Assembly (NCBI RefSeq): GCF_016900315.1
Contig: NZ_JACSNQ010000012.1
Coordinates: 1 to 55,390 of the forward strand
DNA length: 55,390 nt
Origin: Olsenella profusa
GTDB lineage: Bacteria > Actinomycetota > Coriobacteriia > Coriobacteriales > Atopobiaceae
Direction of reading: 5' to 3'
Below the pieces are notes generated by a model. That model was given only the letters and a program-made list of their open reading frames with translations. It was not told where the DNA came from and made no database searches. How positions within the stretch are numbered: the stretch's first letter is position 1; every line of letters starts with the position of its first letter. The translations under genes were made by a program, and so were the position numbers. Below are positions 3,254 to 43,284 of this stretch, in pieces.

Positions 3254-3685
3254 ATGCCCGGCAGTTACAAGTCCAAGCAGATGATCGTCATGCGCCGCGA
3301 CCTCAAGATGCGCAAGGGCAAGATCGCCGCGCAGGCCGGCCACGCGTGCGTGGAGGCCACGCTCATGGCCATCGTGCGCGAGGGCCGCGGGGACGCGCTG
3401 CGCGCCGCGGACGGCTGGGCCTGGATCGAGCACGCCGAGGGCGACTCCACCCCGCTCACCGACTGGTTCGACGCCGGCGTGGCCAAGGTCTGCGTCTACG
3501 TGGACTCCGAGGAGGAGCTGCTCGACCTCGCCGAGCGCGGCCGCGAGCTCGGCTTTGCCGTGGCGCTTGTGCGCGACGCCGGCCGCACGGAGTTCCACGG
3601 CGAGCCCACCTACACCTGCCTCGCCTTCGAGCCGCTCCCCGCCGAGAAGATCGACCCGCTGACCGGCGACCTCCCGCTGTACTAG
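3254..3685 (+). CDS. pth2: Peptidyl-tRNA hydrolase, PTH2 type
   Basis: A 143-residue enzyme that would release peptidyl-tRNAs that drop off ribosomes. It is of the PTH2 fold, the archaeal/eukaryotic type, rather than the usual bacterial Pth. The N-terminal KQMIVMRRDLKMRKGKIAAQ and QAGHACVEA segments match the PTH2 core, and the VYVDSEEELLDL strand-helix and the TCLAFEPLPAEKIDPLTGDLPLY tail are typical. The start follows GGAAGGAG. It lies 124 bp after the CDF gene and is followed by the first hairpin array. Whether the genome also has an ordinary pth gene cannot be seen here. Confidence 0.85.
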   Translation: MPGSYKSKQMIVMRRDLKMRKGKIAAQAGHACVEATLMAIVREGRGDALRAADGWAWIEHAEGDSTPLTDWFDAGVAKVCVYVDSEEELLDLAERGRELGFAVALVRDAGRTEFHGEPTYTCLAFEPLPAEKIDPLTGDLPLY

Positions 3686-3732
3686 CGTCGGGCGCGCTGC
3701 CGGACGTTCTTCTCGCCTGTGCGCTGTCGTAG

Positions 3733-4028
3733 TTCGCGCTTTGTCACGCTTTTGCTGTTTGAAGCGTGACTATGAGCGAGTTGTCACTTACCACCTCGCG
3801 CGAAGTCACACCTCCACTACTTGAAACGTGACTTTGAACGAGTTGCTGCACCCCGGCTCGCGCTTTGTCACGCTTTCATCGCCTGGAACGTGACTTTCAG
3901 CGAGCCGCCGCTTGTTGCCTCGCGCTTTGTCACGTTTTCGTCGCTTGAAGCGTGACTATGAGCGAGTCATCGTCCACCACCTCGCGCAAAGTCACGCTTT
4001 TGGCGAGAAGAACGTGACTCAGCGCGAG
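3733..4028. repeat. Array of five 48-bp hairpins at exact 62-bp period (array 1)
   Basis: Five palindromic units start at 3733, 3795, 3857, 3919 and 3981. Each is 48 bp and each is followed by a 14-bp non-conserved spacer. The left arm resembles CTCGCGCTTTGTCACG and the right arm resembles CGTGACTTTNAGCGAG, with a variable loop. The loop of unit 5 is formed partly by the 12-mer GGCGAGAAGAAC (4002-4013). Another copy of that 12-mer, reversed, lies just before the array at 3706-3717. This fills the 439-bp gap between pth2 and cysK; no gene is seen there. Confidence 0.93.
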
Positions 4029-4124: not shown

Positions 4125-5039
4125 ATGCGCGTAGCACGTACCGTTGAGGCGCTCATCGGCTCGACGCCGCTCGTTGACCTGACCCGTCTGACCGGGGGCT
4201 CCGATGCCACCGTGCTCGGCAAGCTGGAGTCGGCCAACCCCGGCGGGTCCGCCAAGGACCGCGTGGCCCGCGCGATGGTCGACGACGCCGAGCGCGCCGG
4301 CCGGCTCGCCCCGGGCGGCACCATCATCGAGCCCACCAGCGGAAACACCGGCGTGGGCCTCGCCATGGTCGCCGCGGCGCGCGGCTACCGCCTCATCCTC
4401 ACGATGCCCGACACCATGAGCGTGGAGCGCCGCCGGCTCGCCGAGGCCTATGGCGCGCAGGTTGAGCTCACGCCGGGCGCGGAGGGCATGGCCGGCGCGG
4501 TGGCGCGGGCCGAGGAGCTCGCCGCCACGACGCCCAACTCGATTATCGCCGGACAGTTCGACAACCCCGCCAACCCGCGCGCCCACTACGAGACCACGGG
4601 CCCTGAGATCTGGGCGGACACCGAGGGCAGCGTGGACGCCATCGTGGCGGGCGTGGGCACGGGCGGCACCATCACCGGCTGCGCGCGTTACCTCAAGGAG
4701 CGTCGCCCGGAGCTGCTGGCCGTGGCGGTGGAGCCCGCGGAGTCCCAGGTGCTCGCAGGCGGCGCGGCGGGACCGCACGCCATCCAGGGCATCGGCGCCA
4801 ACTTCGTCCCTGGCAACTTCGACCGCTCCGTGGTGGACGAGATCATGCCCGTGACCTCGGTGGACGCCATCGCGGTCAAGCGTCGGCTCGGGCATGAGCT
4901 GGGTCTGCTCGTGGGCATCTCGTCCGGGGCCGCGGTGGCTGCCGCGCTTGCGCTGGCGGCGCGACCGGAGCTTGCCGGAAAGACCGTCGTCGCCGTGCTG
5001 CCGGACACCGGCGAGCGCTACCTCTCCATGGACGCCTGA
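4125..5039 (+). CDS. cysK: Cysteine synthase (O-acetylserine sulfhydrylase)
   Basis: A cytoplasmic PLP enzyme of 304 residues that makes L-cysteine from O-acetylserine and sulfide. The PLP lysine is Lys44 in [10 protein letters not shown]. The TSGNTG phosphate/substrate loop, the GTGGTITG glycine loop and the C-terminal SSGAA segment are all present. It begins after AAAGGAGGGG and overlaps cysE by one base (stop TGA 5037-5039, ATG 5039-5041), so the two are co-translated. That pairing supplies the substrate directly and allows the CysE-CysK complex. A -10-like TTATAC at 4082-4087 lies 38 bases upstream. Confidence 0.95.
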
Positions 5040-5770
5040 TGGCTGGCGAGAAGAACATGCAGGCGGCGATCGCCACGGCGGGCGGCGGCACGGCGGGCGG
5101 CGTCGCGGCCGCGGCAGACGCGCCCCGCGACACAGCTGGCGCCACGCGGAGGGCCGCATCCGGCGGTGCCACGGACGCTCCCACCCTGCGCCAGCTCATG
5201 CGCGAGGACGCCGAGGCCGCCTTCCGGCGCGATCCCTCGGCCGACTCCGTCTCCGACATCATGCGCTTCTCGGTGGGCGCCCGGATCGTGCGCGCGTATC
5301 GCCGCCAGCACTGGCTCTACCAGCACGGCCACCGCACGCTGGCGCTCTGGCTCGCCAAGCGCACGCGCATCAAATTCGGCGCGGACATCCATCCGGCGGC
5401 CACGATCGGCCGGCGCTTCGTGATCGACCACGGCATCGGCGTCGTCATCGGCGGCACCGCGATCATCGGAGACGACTGCCTGATCTACCAGGGCGTCACT
5501 CTGGGCATGACCGGCAAGCACGGCGGCAAGCGCCATCCCACGCTCGGAAACGACGTCATGGTGGGCGCCGGCTCCATCGTGCTCGGCGCCATCACCGTGG
5601 GCGACGGCGCGCGCGTCGGCGCCGGGTCCGTGGTGGTACGCGACGTCCCGCCCCACGTCACCGTCGTGGGCAACCCCGCGCAGGTGGTCCGCACGCGCTC
5701 CTGCCCGCTCGTCGGCGACGTGGTCTGCCTCACCGACCGTGCGGGCGAGACCTGGATCGAGGAGACCTAG
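5039..5770 (+). CDS. cysE: Serine O-acetyltransferase
   Basis: This enzyme acetylates L-serine with acetyl-CoA, the committed step of cysteine synthesis. The C-terminal half is a left-handed beta-helix of hexapeptide repeats containing the signature GADIHPAATIGRRFVIDHG, the catalytic His region, and YQGVTLGMTGK. The conserved fold begins around residue 45 (LRQLMREDAEAAF). The first 40 residues are Gly/Ala-rich and look disordered. This tail includes AGEKNM, encoded by an exact copy of the 12-mer repeat at 5045-5056, so the true start could be the second ATG at 5057 or lie further downstream. I kept 5039 because of the one-base overlap with cysK. Confidence 0.92.
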   Translation: MAGEKNMQAAIATAGGGTAGGVAAAADAPRDTAGATRRAASGGATDAPTLRQLMREDAEAAFRRDPSADSVSDIMRFSVGARIVRAYRRQHWLYQHGHRTLALWLAKRTRIKFGADIHPAATIGRRFVIDHGIGVVIGGTAIIGDDCLIYQGVTLGMTGKHGGKRHPTLGNDVMVGAGSIVLGAITVGDGARVGAGSVVVRDVPPHVTVVGNPAQVVRTRSCPLVGDVVCLTDRAGETWIEET

Positions 5771-15806: not shown

Positions 15807-16772
15807 CTACTCGGCGGGAAGGGCCTTCTCGCAGTAGTCGCGAATAATCGAGCAGGACTTGCGCATCGCGCGACGCTCGTCGTAGGAGAGGTCGATCTCC
15901 AGGACGGCGTCGACGCCCGTGTCGCCGATGATGCACGGCACGCCGGCGGAGATGCCGGACTCGCCATACTCGCCGTCGAGGTGGGCGGAGAGCGGCACCA
16001 CGCGCTTCTCGTTGTGCAGAATCGCGGTCACGAGCGTGGCCACGATCGAGGCGATGCCGAACTCGGTGCAGCCCTTGCCGGCGATGATCGCGGCGCCGGA
16101 CTCGCGGACGCGGCGCATGACGTCATCGAAGTCGATGGAGTCCACCACGTCGTCACGCAGCGAGAGGTACTCGCGCAGGCCGATGCCCTCCACGGAGATG
16201 CGCGAAGTGGGGATGAACATGGAGTCGCCGTGCTCGCCCATGCAGAACGCCTGGATCTGGCGGCTGCCCACGTCGATGGTCTCGGAGAGGACGCGGCGCA
16301 GGCGCGCGGAGTCGAGTGCGGTGCCGGTGCCAAAGACCTGGTTGCGCGGCAGGTCGAGCTTGCGATAGAGGTACTCGACCACGATGTCGGCCGGGTTGGA
16401 GACGCTGATGAGGATGCCGTGGAAGCCGGATTCCTTGAGCGGCCCGATGATGCCGTCGAGCACCTTGATGGTGCCGTCGAGCATCTGGAGGCGCGTCTCG
16501 CCGGGGCGGCGGCTGCGGCCGGCGGTGAGGATCACGAAGTGGGCGTCCTTGCAGTCCGAGTAGTCGCCCACGCGGATGGTGAACGAGTCGCCGAGGCCGG
16601 AGGCCAGGTCGTCGAGGTCGAGCGCCTGGGCGCGCGCGGCCTCCTGGCTGACGTCGAGAAAGACGATCTCGTTGACGAGGTGCTGGAACATGAGGCAGAG
16701 CGCCACGTGGCTGCCCACGCGGCCCGCGCCGATGATGACTGCCTTGCGGGTCCTGATGTCTTCTCCGTGCAT
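15807..16772 (-). CDS. ldh: L-lactate/malate dehydrogenase family, probably lactate dehydrogenase
   Basis: A 321-residue NAD-dependent 2-hydroxyacid dehydrogenase. The Rossmann loop is VIIGAGRVGSHVA. The catalytic His is about residue 181 in CMGEHGDSMF, with the Asp-Arg pair in ALDSARLRR and the NAD-contacting SNPADIV. In the mobile loop, TAGRSRRPGETR, the residue that is Gln in lactate dehydrogenases and Arg in malate dehydrogenases is Arg88, while the rest of the loop (PGETR) is lactate-type. The enzyme could reduce pyruvate, oxaloacetate or another 2-oxoacid; I call it lactate dehydrogenase by overall family only. A -10-like TAGAAT (minus strand, 16849-16844) lies 72 bases upstream. Confidence 0.85.
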   Translation of the reverse strand: MHGEDIRTRKAVIIGAGRVGSHVALCLMFQHLVNEIVFLDVSQEAARAQALDLDDLASGLGDSFTIRVGDYSDCKDAHFVILTAGRSRRPGETRLQMLDGTIKVLDGIIGPLKESGFHGILISVSNPADIVVEYLYRKLDLPRNQVFGTGTALDSARLRRVLSETIDVGSRQIQAFCMGEHGDSMFIPTSRISVEGIGLREYLSLRDDVVDSIDFDDVMRRVRESGAAIIAGKGCTEFGIASIVATLVTAILHNEKRVVPLSAHLDGEYGESGISAGVPCIIGDTGVDAVLEIDLSYDERRAMRKSCSIIRDYCEKALPAE

Positions 16773-16940: not shown

Positions 16941-17236
16941 CTCGTGCGAAGTCACGTTACTTGCCGCGAAAGCGTGACTTCAAGCGAGTCGGCGATCGAC
17001 AGCTCGTTCAAGGTCACGCTTTCTGCCACGGAAGCGTGACTTCAAGCGAGCTCACAATCAGCAACTCACTCAATGTCACGTTTCCTGACCTCAGAGCGTG
17101 ACTTCGCGCGAGCCGGCGAGAAGAACCTCGTTCAAAGTCACGTTTTCTCTTGGCAAAGCGTGACTTCGAACGAGCTCGCAGCCGACAACTCGCTCAAAGT
17201 CACGCTCCAAGCCGCCAGAGCGTGACTTCGCGCGAG
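16941..17236. repeat. Array of five 48-bp hairpins at exact 62-bp period (array 2)
   Basis: Units start at 16941, 17003, 17065, 17127 and 17189. The geometry is the same as array 1: 48-bp palindromes with 14-bp spacers. Arms are CTCGNNCAAAGTCACG and CGTGACTTCNAGCGAG and pair over about 18 bp with a 12-base loop. The spacer between units 3 and 4 is two C residues plus an exact 12-mer repeat (17115-17126). A two-copy 19-bp tandem repeat (16893-16929) precedes it. The array fills the 545-bp gap between ettA and ldh; no gene is seen there. Confidence 0.93.
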
Positions 17237-17317: not shown

Positions 17318-18997
17318 CTAGTCGCGCGTGAGCTTGCGGTGCAGACGGTGCGGGCGCGAGGCCTCCGCGCCGAGGCGCTTCTCGCGGTCGGCCTGGTAGG
17401 CCTCGAAGTTGCCTTCGAACCAGTACCAGCGGCCGGGGTTCTCGTCGTCGCCCTCCCAGGCCAGAATGTGGGTGGCCACGCGGTCGAGGAACCAGCGGTC
17501 GTGGGAGATCACCACAGAGCAGCCCGGGAACTCCTCGAGCGCCTCCTCCAGGCTCTCGAGCGTCTCCACGTCGAGGTCGTTGGTGGGCTCGTCCAGCAGC
17601 AGGAGGTTTCCGCCCTGCTTGAGCGTGAGCGCCAGGTTCAGGCGGTTGCGCTCGCCGCCGGAGAGCACGCCCGCGCGCTTCTGCTGGTCCCCACCCTTGA
17701 AACCGAAGGCCGCCACGTAGGCGCGGCTCGGAATCTCGGTCTCGCCCACGCGGATGTAGTCGTTGCCGTCGGAGACGACCTCCCAGAGGGTCTTGTCCGC
17801 GTCGATGCCCTCGCGCATCTGGTCAACGTAGGAGAGCTTGACGGTCTCCCCCACCGAGAGCGTGCCGGACGTGGGCTCCTCCTGGCCCACGATCATCTTG
17901 AAGAGAGTGGACTTGCCCACGCCGTTGGGGCCGATCACGCCCACGATGCCGTTGCGCGGCAGGCTGAAGGAGAGGTCGTCGATGAGCACGCGGTCGCCGA
18001 AGCTCTTGCAGAGGTGCTCGGCCTCGAGCACCTTGGCGCCCAGGCGCGGGCCCACTGGGATGTGAATGTCGGTGAAGTCCACGCGCTTGCTGGCGCGGGC
18101 CTCGGCCTCCATCTGCTCGTAGCGCTCCAGGCGCGCGCGGTTCTTGGCCTGGCGGGCCTTGGGGCTCGAACGCACCCACGCGAGCTCGGCCTTCATCTTC
18201 TTGGCGCGGCGCGCGTCCTGCTGGCTCTGGGCCTCCAGGCGCGCGGCCTTCTTCTCCAGGTAGGTGGAGTAGTTGCCCTCGTAGGGGTAGAGCTGGCCGC
18301 GGTCGACCTCGCAGATCCACTCGGCCACGTCATCGAGGAAGTAGCGGTCGTGCGTGACGGCCATGACGGCGCCGGGGTAGCGATGGAGGAACTGCTCCAG
18401 CCAGAGCACGCTCTCGGCGTCCAGGTGGTTGGTGGGCTCGTCCAAAAGCAGCAGGTCGGGCGCCTCAAGCAGCAGGCGGCACAGGGCCACGCGACGGCGC
18501 TCGCCGCCGGAGAGGATGGAGACGGGCGCGTCCGGGTCCGGGCACTGCAGGGCGTCCATGGCCTGCGAGAGCTGAGAGTCCAGGTCCCAGCCGTTGGCGG
18601 CGTCGATCTCGTCCTGGAGCTGGCCCATCTCGGCCATGAGGGCGTCGAAGTCCGCGTCCGGGTCCGCCATCGCGGCGCTCACCTCGTTGAAGCGCTCGAT
18701 CTTGGCCAGGACGTCGCCGAAGGCCTGCTCGATGTTCTCGCGGACGGTCTTGTCCTCGTCGAGCGGCGGCTCCTGCTGGAGGATGCCCACCGTGTAGCCG
18801 GGGCTGAGACGCGCCTCGCCGTTGGAGACGTCCTCGAGGCCGGCCATGACCTTGAGCAGCGTGGACTTGCCCGCACCGTTGGGGCCCACCACGCCGATCT
18901 TGGCGCCGGGGTAGACGCCCACCGTGACGTCGTCCAGGATGACCTTGTCGTGCACGGCCTTGCGGGCCCGGTTGAACATGTAGACGAACTCTGCCAT
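17318..18997 (-). CDS. ettA: Energy-dependent translational throttle protein (ABC-F)
   Basis: A 559-residue soluble twin-ATPase that acts at the ribosomal E site, gating entry into elongation according to the ATP:ADP ratio. It has two ABC domains: GPNGAGKST ... SGGERRRVALCRLLL ... LLLLDEPTNHLD, then GPNGVGKST ... SGGERNRLNLALTL ... LLLLDEPTNDLD. They are joined by the charged P-site interaction linker (YLEKKAARLEAQSQQDARRAKKMKAE region is split by the family's arm insert). Length and the N-terminal EFVYMFNRARKAV match EttA rather than drug-resistance ABC-F proteins. It may read through the hairpin array towards ldh, which is on the same strand. Confidence 0.93.
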   Translation of the reverse strand: MAEFVYMFNRARKAVHDKVILDDVTVGVYPGAKIGVVGPNGAGKSTLLKVMAGLEDVSNGEARLSPGYTVGILQQEPPLDEDKTVRENIEQAFGDVLAKIERFNEVSAAMADPDADFDALMAEMGQLQDEIDAANGWDLDSQLSQAMDALQCPDPDAPVSILSGGERRRVALCRLLLEAPDLLLLDEPTNHLDAESVLWLEQFLHRYPGAVMAVTHDRYFLDDVAEWICEVDRGQLYPYEGNYSTYLEKKAARLEAQSQQDARRAKKMKAELAWVRSSPKARQAKNRARLERYEQMEAEARASKRVDFTDIHIPVGPRLGAKVLEAEHLCKSFGDRVLIDDLSFSLPRNGIVGVIGPNGVGKSTLFKMIVGQEEPTSGTLSVGETVKLSYVDQMREGIDADKTLWEVVSDGNDYIRVGETEIPSRAYVAAFGFKGGDQQKRAGVLSGGERNRLNLALTLKQGGNLLLLDEPTNDLDVETLESLEEALEEFPGCSVVISHDRWFLDRVATHILAWEGDDENPGRWYWFEGNFEAYQADREKRLGAEASRPHRLHRKLTRD

Positions 18998-37513: not shown

Positions 37514-37895
37514 GCTTAAGGAAACGCACCCATAGCGGAACAAAGCTCGTAAGCCGCTTAGGAAATACAGAGTGATGCGGGGCGTCGGCGAAAAGGCGCT
37601 TAGAAAAGGGAGCCTAATACGAAGCGGGAAGGCATGGAGAGAACACCTCTCAGCAAAGCCGCAGGATACGAAGGCGCTTCAGGCGGCGAGAAGAACGAAC
37701 GGCACGAAACAAGCGTCGTTTCGTAAGCAGGTTCTTCTCGCCAGGCGCATCGGCTGAGAATACGTAAGCAGGTTCTTCTCGCCGGGCGCATCAGCTGGGG
37801 TTTCGTAAGCAGGTTCTTCTCGACAGGTGCGTCGACCGGAATTATGTAAGCGTTCCACCGCTTCTTGCGGCATCGGAGGCAATTCCGTAAGCACG
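37514..37895. repeat. Palindromic array of 41-42 bp units, first locus
   Basis: Units read GCTTANGRAA on the left (start near 37514, 37556, 37598, 37676) and TTCGTAAGC on the right (GTAAGC at 37723, 37764, 37805, 37846, 37890), mirrored about 37703. The right-hand units contain GTTCTTCTCGCC, the reversed 12-mer, at 37731 and 37772 and a variant at 37813; a forward copy lies at 37685-37696. The array occupies the 605-bp gap between the AT-rich island and the HAD gene; no gene is seen. Confidence 0.82.
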
Positions 37896-42808: not shown

Positions 42809-43210
42809 GCTTTGAAAATCGCGGCCAAGACAGACGCGCGGCCCAAAGGTGCTTACGAATTTGAGGTTGTTGCAGCTCCGCGCAACTAAGGTGCTTAGGA
42901 AATCGCGGTTGGTGCGGCACCACGGTCTCGTCCTGCTTACAAAACAACGGGTAGCACGCACCGCGCACCCCCTAACGCCCCACTGGCGAGAAGAACGCCC
43001 AGCTGACAGGCATCTCGAGGTTCTTCTCGCCGGGCGCTTGGGCGGGTGAGGATCGGCAAGCGCGTAACAGTCCCGATTTTGTAAGCGGATAGCGAGACTT
43101 TTGCTGCAACGACCCCGTTTCCGTAAGCAACGCCCACGCCGTCCCTGCAACAGCCCCACTTCCGTAAGCAGCGCCCGCGCCGCCCTTGCAACGACCCCGC
43201 TCCCGTAAGC
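42809..43210. repeat. Palindromic array of 41-42 bp units, second locus
   Basis: Four left units carry GCTTANGRAA at 42809 (degenerate), 42851, 42893 and 42935 (period 42). Four right units carry GTAAGC at 43081, 43123, 43164 and 43205 (period 41-42). Matching left and right units are mirror-symmetric about 43010 within one base. The centre holds an inverted pair of the 12-mer (42985-42996 and 43020-43031). The whole is a long imperfect inverted repeat and occupies most of the 839-bp gap before the JetD-like gene. In the rest of the gap (42446-42808) I see no gene. Confidence 0.88.
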
Positions 43211-43284
43211 AAGAGCTCGGGCAAGGCGGCAAAACCGTACCCCCGTGCGCTATCCTGAAAGGCCAACCAAGCGGAAGGCACCCC

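Follow-up and report, generated by a model that had tools for sequence, protein, structure and literature searches.

CRISPR arrays combine conserved repeats with variable spacers of constant length. The BIME-2 arrays of E. coli are intergenic series of palindromic motifs that alternate in orientation at regular distances; they are bound by gyrase and IHF, and a role in chromosome organization has been proposed for them. To our knowledge the RAYT-REP partnership is the one well-documented case of a bacterial gene that is coupled to a dispersed population of extragenic repeats. RAYT-REP pairs are characterized by a gene flanked by repeats, by co-evolution of the two and by a repeat abundance that follows the gene (PMC2817692). 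REPINs (PMC3116915) are compared here as part of the RAYT-REP/BIME systems, and the text of a further RAYT-REP paper makes no mention of Olsenella, Atopobium or Collinsella (PMC3733652). AbiEi, the antitoxin and repressor of the type IV toxin-antitoxin system AbiE, is described in PMC3985639 as a winged-helix protein whose binding sites are two spaced inverted repeats of 23 bp.

The window analyzed here is a stretch of 55,390 nucleotides from Olsenella profusa, and its own genome (G000) comprises 2.07 Mb in 56 contigs. An original prediction made from the letters of the window had described five 48-bp hairpins at a fixed spacing between pth2 and cysK (array A). A second array of five units and of the same type (array B) had escaped that first reading. 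The arrays and the adjacent genes are the following.

3254..3685, + strand: pth2, encoding peptidyl-tRNA hydrolase PTH2 (PF01981, E 1.4e-32), upstream of array A, with its stop 47 bp before the array
3733..4028, no strand assigned: array A, ten 16-bp arms in the order +-+-+-+-+-, separated alternately by 16 and 14 bp and forming five 48-bp units at 3733, 3795, 3857, 3919 and 3981
4125..5039, + strand: gene for a cysK-like PLP-dependent enzyme (PF00291, E 1.3e-73), downstream of array A, starting 96 bp past the array
15807..16772, - strand: lactate/malate dehydrogenase family gene beside array B, which lies 168 bp upstream of the gene start
16941..17236, no strand assigned: array B, same family as array A, five units at 16941, 17003, 17065, 17127 and 17189
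17318..18997, - strand: gene for an ABC transporter ATPase that carries ABC_tran_Xtn (ABC-F type), beside array B, which lies 81 bp past the gene stop

For array A the predicted unit starts and the step of exactly 62 bp were confirmed, and the 14-bp spacers indeed differ from each other. The arm ends that had been described as conserved, CTCG/CGAG outside and GTCACG/CGTGAC inside, hold for most arms; unit 1 opens with TTCG instead of CTCG and unit 2 has GTCACA instead of GTCACG. The 48-bp palindrome is an imperfect one, with 13 to 18 of 24 positions in Watson-Crick register in array A and 14 to 19 of 24 in array B. The combination GTCACG-N6-24-CGTGAC occurs at 9 sites in the window versus 0.19 expected from shuffles. 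The window further holds two tandem arrays of other sequence with a 41-bp period, at 37722-37851 and 43104-43212, the first of which contains GTTCTTCTCGCC.

A sequence-only model (R1) built from the ten window units gave 180 matches on both strands of G000 at E values up to 1, which correspond to about 90 places because the units are palindromic. A genome-wide search of the kind that had been suggested, run with GTCACG-N6-24-CGTGAC, returned 79 sites in G000 versus one for a reversed-pattern control. Arrays were dissected from the stretches around the listed matches in G000 and in the related genomes G022 and G002, using a weight matrix derived from G000 arms, a procedure that favors conserved arms. 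This gave at least 63 arrays, which together contain 553 arms. The true repeat unit is a 16-bp arm, CTCG-N6-GTCACG, which alternates in orientation; breaks in the alternation occurred mostly in G002 and fit single arms under the score limit. The gap within a palindrome was 16 bp in 86/94 cases in G000, 42/50 in G022 and 82/100 in G002. The gap between palindromes was somewhat more rigid, at 14 bp in 77/81 (G000) and 51/54 (G022) cases and at 13 bp in 84/96 cases in G002. Since either arm may open or close an array, nothing singles out the 48-bp palindrome, which the original prediction had taken as the unit. Variable unit numbers and spacing in relatives, or unconserved arms, had been named as signs of decaying tandem repeats; the number of units does vary, from 2 to 14 arms per array, whereas spacing and arms do not.

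The arrays are dispersed between genes. None of the 63 listed arrays overlapped an open reading frame by more than 40 bp, and one (L065) overlapped by 10 bp, the genes being codon-score calls and not an annotation. The gene context was tandem for 38 arrays, convergent for 14 and divergent for 8, with three at contig ends, and the median distance was 77 bp to 3' ends and 152 bp to 5' ends. A scan of genome_contigs with the exact pattern found 43 stretches; 16 of these contain one isolated site each, come from unrelated bacteria such as Streptomyces and Rubrivivax, and are taken as chance; viral_contigs contained no match to the exact array pattern. The pattern suits the predicted phased, protein-bound DNA array with its spacing under constraint, and the early distinction from CRISPR and from a plain recent tandem repeat is supported.

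The commonest 12-mer of the window is GGCGAGAAGAAC, with 21 copies versus 0.02 expected in shuffles. Its sites include the following.

4002..4013, + strand: GGCGAGAAGAAC in array A, within the unit 5 loop
17115..17126, + strand: GGCGAGAAGAAC in a spacer of array B
3706-3717 and 5045-5056: examples of further sites of GGCGAGAAGAAC in the window

In the G000 stretches chosen for arrays it occurs 79 times in 205 kb. It sits in coding and non-coding DNA as well as in array loops, with 26 copies in 16.6 kb of arrays, and it was present in fetched loci of 26/29 genus genomes and of 0/25 genomes of other genera. This 12-mer looks like an uptake signal or a similar genome word.

Substitutions were counted in two orthologous array pairs with well-alignable spacers (L052/L201 and L056/L193). 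Differences occurred at 3/180 positions of the arm core, 8/108 of the variable arm, 47/278 between arms and 77/640 in the flanks. Because the core differs so much less than the bases between arms (Fisher p 2.5e-8), the arms are selected, and the earlier statement that position and not sequence is under selection does not hold: the arm sequence itself is strongly conserved. L052 and L201 differ by two whole units, and at the shared sites L055, L057 and L059 both genomes carry an array with spacers that look unrelated. The identity of loop plus spacer was 0.51-0.53 within an array, 0.406 between arrays of one genome and 0.397 between genomes, compared to 0.25 for shuffled sequences; among the 4132 pairs that combine units of separate arrays in the same genome, two had an identity of at least 0.75. 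Units are thus more alike within an array than between arrays, which points to growth by tandem duplication, and recent copying from one array to another has left little trace. A neutral minisatellite, decaying after tandem duplication, would explain this likeness (0.51-0.53 within an array versus 0.41 between arrays) and the whole-unit indel separating L052 and L201. Such decay is very improbable in view of arm cores whose rate of change is roughly a tenth of that of the intervening bases, of the exact spacing kept by diverged arrays and of a 61/62-bp period that is found again, with other sequences, within one clade of the protein, as described below.

The ability of the arms to pair, at 13-19 of 24 positions, and the location of the arrays near 3' ends (median 77 bp, versus 152 bp to 5' ends) would also be compatible with an RNA element, which could be a small RNA or a row of five hairpins in the 3' part of the transcript from the upstream gene. 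Covariation was examined in 241 pairs of loop partners and 224 pairs of spacer partners taken from the three genomes, and with shuffles over all arms and within arrays. At the outer positions, the Watson-Crick fraction of loop partners was 0.580 (0.581 when shuffled over all, 0.568 within arrays) and that of spacer partners was 0.558 (0.582 and 0.558, respectively). At the inner positions of partner arms it was 0.476, versus 0.499 over all and 0.486 within arrays. The G-U fraction at loop partners was 0.083 at outer and 0.146 at inner positions, versus 0.101 and 0.148 for A-C. A small excess of partner complementarity appeared for the pooled outer loop partners, where 22/500 within-array shuffles were equally high, and for G002 alone, where 42/500 over-all shuffles reached the observed value. 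The variable positions of these 241 and 224 pairs showed no overall covariation and no excess of G-U over A-C, so that the stem covariation looked for at the suggestion of the original prediction was not found. The five-hairpin RNA reading of the array fails, as shuffled partners are, taken together, just as complementary as the real ones. The slight excess in G002 and within arrays speaks for an RNA element, while the arrays located between divergent genes (8 of the 60 with both neighbors called) and the Rfam search of the window, which detected nothing except a tRNA, speak against it, and we regard an RNA element of either kind as highly unlikely.

The pth2-cysK interval was compared among relatives. 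The pth2 gene was found in 31/31 genus genomes, and 30 loci were examined, G045 with its split hit being left out. A cysK match was present at 29 of the 30 loci, with a partial match in G004; the G013 contig extends only some 100 bp past pth2. Arms were present in this interval in G000 only. They were absent from all 28 relatives with a readable interval, and a role tied to pth2 and cysK must be abandoned: this locus is one of dozens of dispersed intergenic arrays and is not special. Inspection by eye revealed no target-site duplication and no clean insertion boundary at pth2-cysK. Palindromic repeats of other kinds were seen by eye in the same interval in 9 of 11 relatives inspected (L113, L117, L119, L120, L124, L128, L131, L135 and L141); they are of the types GGTTATGTACACC, GAACCCAAACC, TGACAAACTACCCTGTCACC, GGGGTCTGACCCC and CACAACCGTCGCG.

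A candidate partner protein is encoded elsewhere in the genome. On contig C23 of G000 an open reading frame for 349 amino acids (1044-2090) is enclosed by two arrays. Its orthologs share 83% (G022) and 71% (G002) identity; the G002 gene has arrays on both sides, and the G022 gene has one on one side, with the next array past the neighboring gene. The family of about 350-aa proteins to which it belongs has 73 homologs in 29/31 genus genomes. In a class-wide draw it was detected in 143/396 genomes and 34/153 genera, with all 143 genomes in the order of the window, the share of the 396 outside this order not being given. Searches of Pfam, NCBIfam and PDB sequences gave no convincing match to the array-flanked protein. 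One member matched Pfam AbiEi_4 with an E value of 0.012, and PADLOC AbiEi models matched 28 of 41 members over approximately residues 35-205 (best 3.5e-12), the G000 protein itself (L225) reaching only 0.015 against AbiEi profiles. Residues E213, R217, Q231, W250, E261-x-D263-G264 and K267 are invariant in 41 members, and D247 is nearly so. The pattern E213, D247, E261-x-D-G, K267 resembles that of PD-(D/E)xK enzymes of the VSR/DUF559 type; a PDB sequence search gave no meaningful match. The structure model, computed from two sequences only, was useless (mean pLDDT 38.5), so that both the winged helix and the nuclease fold are only putative.

No AbiEii gene was found among 10 neighbors scanned at 5 loci; the sole mention of AbiEii there came from an AAA_21 match below the cut-off, located within an ABC transporter. 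The G012 homolog (L268, 4115-5485) lies beside an rve integrase-core transposase gene. A viral or plasmid origin was considered and dropped: the family had no match in phages, none of 36 protein-pattern matches in viral_contigs was a relative and the exact arrays were missing there as well, and the lone plasmid match was to a Collinsella aerofaciens record of 899,693 bp, which looks chromosomal in size. The conserved residues (E213, D247, E261-x-D-G, K267), presumably of PD-(D/E)xK type, and the many arm sites per genome would suit a DNA antidote, in which the arrays titrate a harmful nuclease and array loss frees it, giving addiction to the repeats. This is quite unlikely, given that no toxicity or nuclease activity is known, that no fold was obtained and that G014 retains arrays while no gene was detected.

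To relate gene and repeats, the 600 bp to the left of a gene were compared with the 600 bp to its right, a pass being at least 10 shared 10-mers. The test covered 70 of the 73 homologs; the other three belong to G016, G012 and G041, one per genome. L249, L277 and L289, whose reading frames contain a stop, were included here but not in the alignment or the tree. The test was passed by 52/70 homologs (median 23.5) and failed by 18, compared to passes for 4/30 pth2 loci (median 3) and 16/98 random places. In other genera 17/26 loci passed, a set of which 20 were hand-picked and which has no control of its own. Eight loci viewed by eye had inverted repeats with differing arms in their flanks.

The spacing of the flanking repeats was also compared. 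The strongest period peaks (at least 28/40) were at 61 bp in 11/140 flanks and at 62 bp in 10/140, versus 1/60 for pth2 flanks, presumably the array of G000 itself. By a fixed rule, 23/70 copies had a 61/62-bp period in a flank (22 rows when labeled by eye, 23 when recomputed by the rule), whereas 19 other period pairs, every third pair from 40/41 to 97/98, were found in 0 to 2 copies each. The copies with this period make up 23/31 of one tree group and 0/39 elsewhere, 36 of the 39 being in the tree; the branch uniting them has a support of 91/81, below the starred level, in a midpoint-rooted tree. Dyad-centre steps of 30.5 or 31 bp accounted for 37/70 in 22 loci preselected mostly for the 61/62-bp period. 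Within this one clade the dyad step of about 30.5-31 bp is found with different arms. A 61-bp period also occurs in three loci of other genera (G211, G245 and G194), all of one genus. Outside the clade, the flanks of L248, L251, L252, L272, L281, L287, L293 and others show period peaks around 36, 39 or 92 bp or else one long palindrome, and geometry thus seems to differ by protein clade.

The abundance of each arm type largely follows its gene. R1 arms on both strands numbered 150 in G000, 141 in G002 and 95 in G022, the three genomes with a close ortholog, and at most 7 in each of the other 28 (7 in G043, 5 in G044, 4 in G014, 4 in G023, 1 in G011 and none in 23). G043 and G023 have a few R1 arrays without a close ortholog. 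In G014, where no family homolog was detected, 5 (L153) and 2 (L143) CTCG-N6-GTCACG arms are present, which may reflect gene loss, a gap in the 94% complete assembly, or transfer. Because the proteins of the three R1 genomes form one clade, their association with R1 is phylogenetically a single case, and replication of the gene-repeat association rests on two other motifs. The motif of G008 has 92 sites in that genome, many of them 61 bp apart, 16 in G010, 11 in G020 and no more than 4 in any of the remaining 28; in the tree the G020 copy (L259) is sister to the G008 copy and the G010 copy falls in the same subclade. The motif of a second G000 copy (C6:12875-13969) has 34 sites in G000, 5 in G022, 1 in G009, 1 in G010 and none in 27 genomes, and none in the window. 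With two cognate motifs dispersed in its genome, G000 appears to run two systems. The second paralog lies between the same neighbors in G020 (L259) and G000 (L261), a class-III aminotransferase gene and an MFS/ATG22 transporter gene, so that the gene seems to stay in place while its repeats change sequence.

Alternating extragenic palindromes are typical of REP/BIME arrays mobilized by a RAYT tyrosine transposase, and Y1_Tnp matches exist in 28/31 genus genomes, two of them in G000. Such mobilization is nevertheless the least probable explanation of the arrays. Five Y1_Tnp genes of G000, G002 and G022 are flanked by other palindromes with a GGGGACxGG core, as judged by eye, and no arm lies within about 3 kb on each side of the Y1_Tnp genes in G000 and G002, the nearest array in G022 being about 7 kb away. 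By eye, the GGGGACxGG-core palindromes at these loci (L189-L193) form a separate REP population.

We conclude that the locus probably belongs to a set of dispersed, phased binding-site arrays that is paired with a solitary AbiEi-like protein of about 350 amino acids encoded elsewhere, and that the arrays probably act as binding platforms under selection. As AbiEi is a winged-helix protein binding two spaced inverted-repeat elements, binding of the arms by the AbiEi-like protein is the natural inference, and each arm would be a recognition site for its putative winged-helix part. A step of 30.5-31 bp amounts to about three helical turns, by which successive dyads face the same side of the DNA; dimers bound to them could line up next to one another and assemble along its length. 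The arrays would then serve as chromosomal binding platforms that are maintained by selection and that may grow and shrink by tandem recombination of whole units, while the arm sequence of each species would co-evolve with its protein. The putative PD-(D/E)xK-like C-terminal part could spread or police the arrays, which is a guess.

The main rival of these phased platforms, which we favor, is a selfish replicator: the AbiEi/nuclease-like protein would spread and expand the arrays without any function for the host, as proposed for RAYTs and REPs. It would explain why the gene is flanked by its cognate repeats, why copy number is high mainly where the cognate gene is present, why arrays sit between genes and why the pth2-cysK array is found in one genome and absent in 28 readable relatives; two of the 4132 inter-array unit pairs within a genome also reach 75% loop-plus-spacer identity. 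Apart from these two pairs, however, loops and spacers resemble each other no more between the arrays of one genome than across genomes (0.406 versus 0.397), unlike recent copies. Neither a target-site duplication nor a clean boundary was visible by eye at pth2-cysK, and orthologous arrays conserve their arms in place. The selfish replicator is a possibility that has to be taken seriously, but it is distinctly less likely than selected platforms.

These results make it reasonably probable that the Coriobacteriales contain a protein-repeat class for which we found no description, in which an AbiEi-like protein, solitary and nuclease-like at its C-terminus, has dispersed arrays of phased inverted sites of its own. 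The protein would set the geometry, with dyads every 30.5-31 bp or so, the arm sequence would vary by species, and two systems per genome would be possible, as appears to be the case in G000. In titles and abstract openings of the literature, with few subscription journals and preprints among them, nothing links AbiEi-like proteins with dispersed repeats. If correct, this is a second and unrelated family with the hallmarks of RAYT-REP, implying that gene-repeat partnerships arose more than once and beyond transposases. It would also provide a natural series of pairs of protein and arm sequence at fixed geometry, from which rules of specificity and spacing can be read and tested.

Compared with AbiE, the partner protein has a weak sequence similarity to AbiEi over residues 35-205 or so and an extra nuclease-like C-terminal part; its 10 scanned neighbors at 5 loci include no AbiEii, and its sites are dispersed over the genome whereas those of AbiEi lie in one promoter. 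CRISPR arrays share the conserved repeats and the variable spacers of constant length, but here the repeats alternate in orientation, the spacers are 13-16 bp long and there are dozens of loci per genome. E. coli BIME-2 arrays share the regularly spaced, alternating palindromic motifs between genes and differ in sequence and spacing, and the cognate flanked gene found here is of a different family. The differences from RAYT-REP/BIME systems lie in the partner, which is no Y1/HUH tyrosine transposase (PF01797) and has no convincing Pfam match, in the RAYT-like genes of G000, G002 and G022, which have REPs of their own, in arms whose pairing is not maintained by covariation, and in arrays that keep a rigid 61/62-bp period and show few traces of recent copying from one to another. 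As in RAYT-REP/BIME systems, the gene is flanked by repeats (52/70 homologs versus 4/30 and 16/98 for the controls), the repeats are dispersed between genes in alternating orientation, their sequence is characteristic of whichever genome or lineage has the cognate gene, repeats and gene change together, and, save for a few arrays in G014, G043 and G023, arm abundance tracks the cognate gene.
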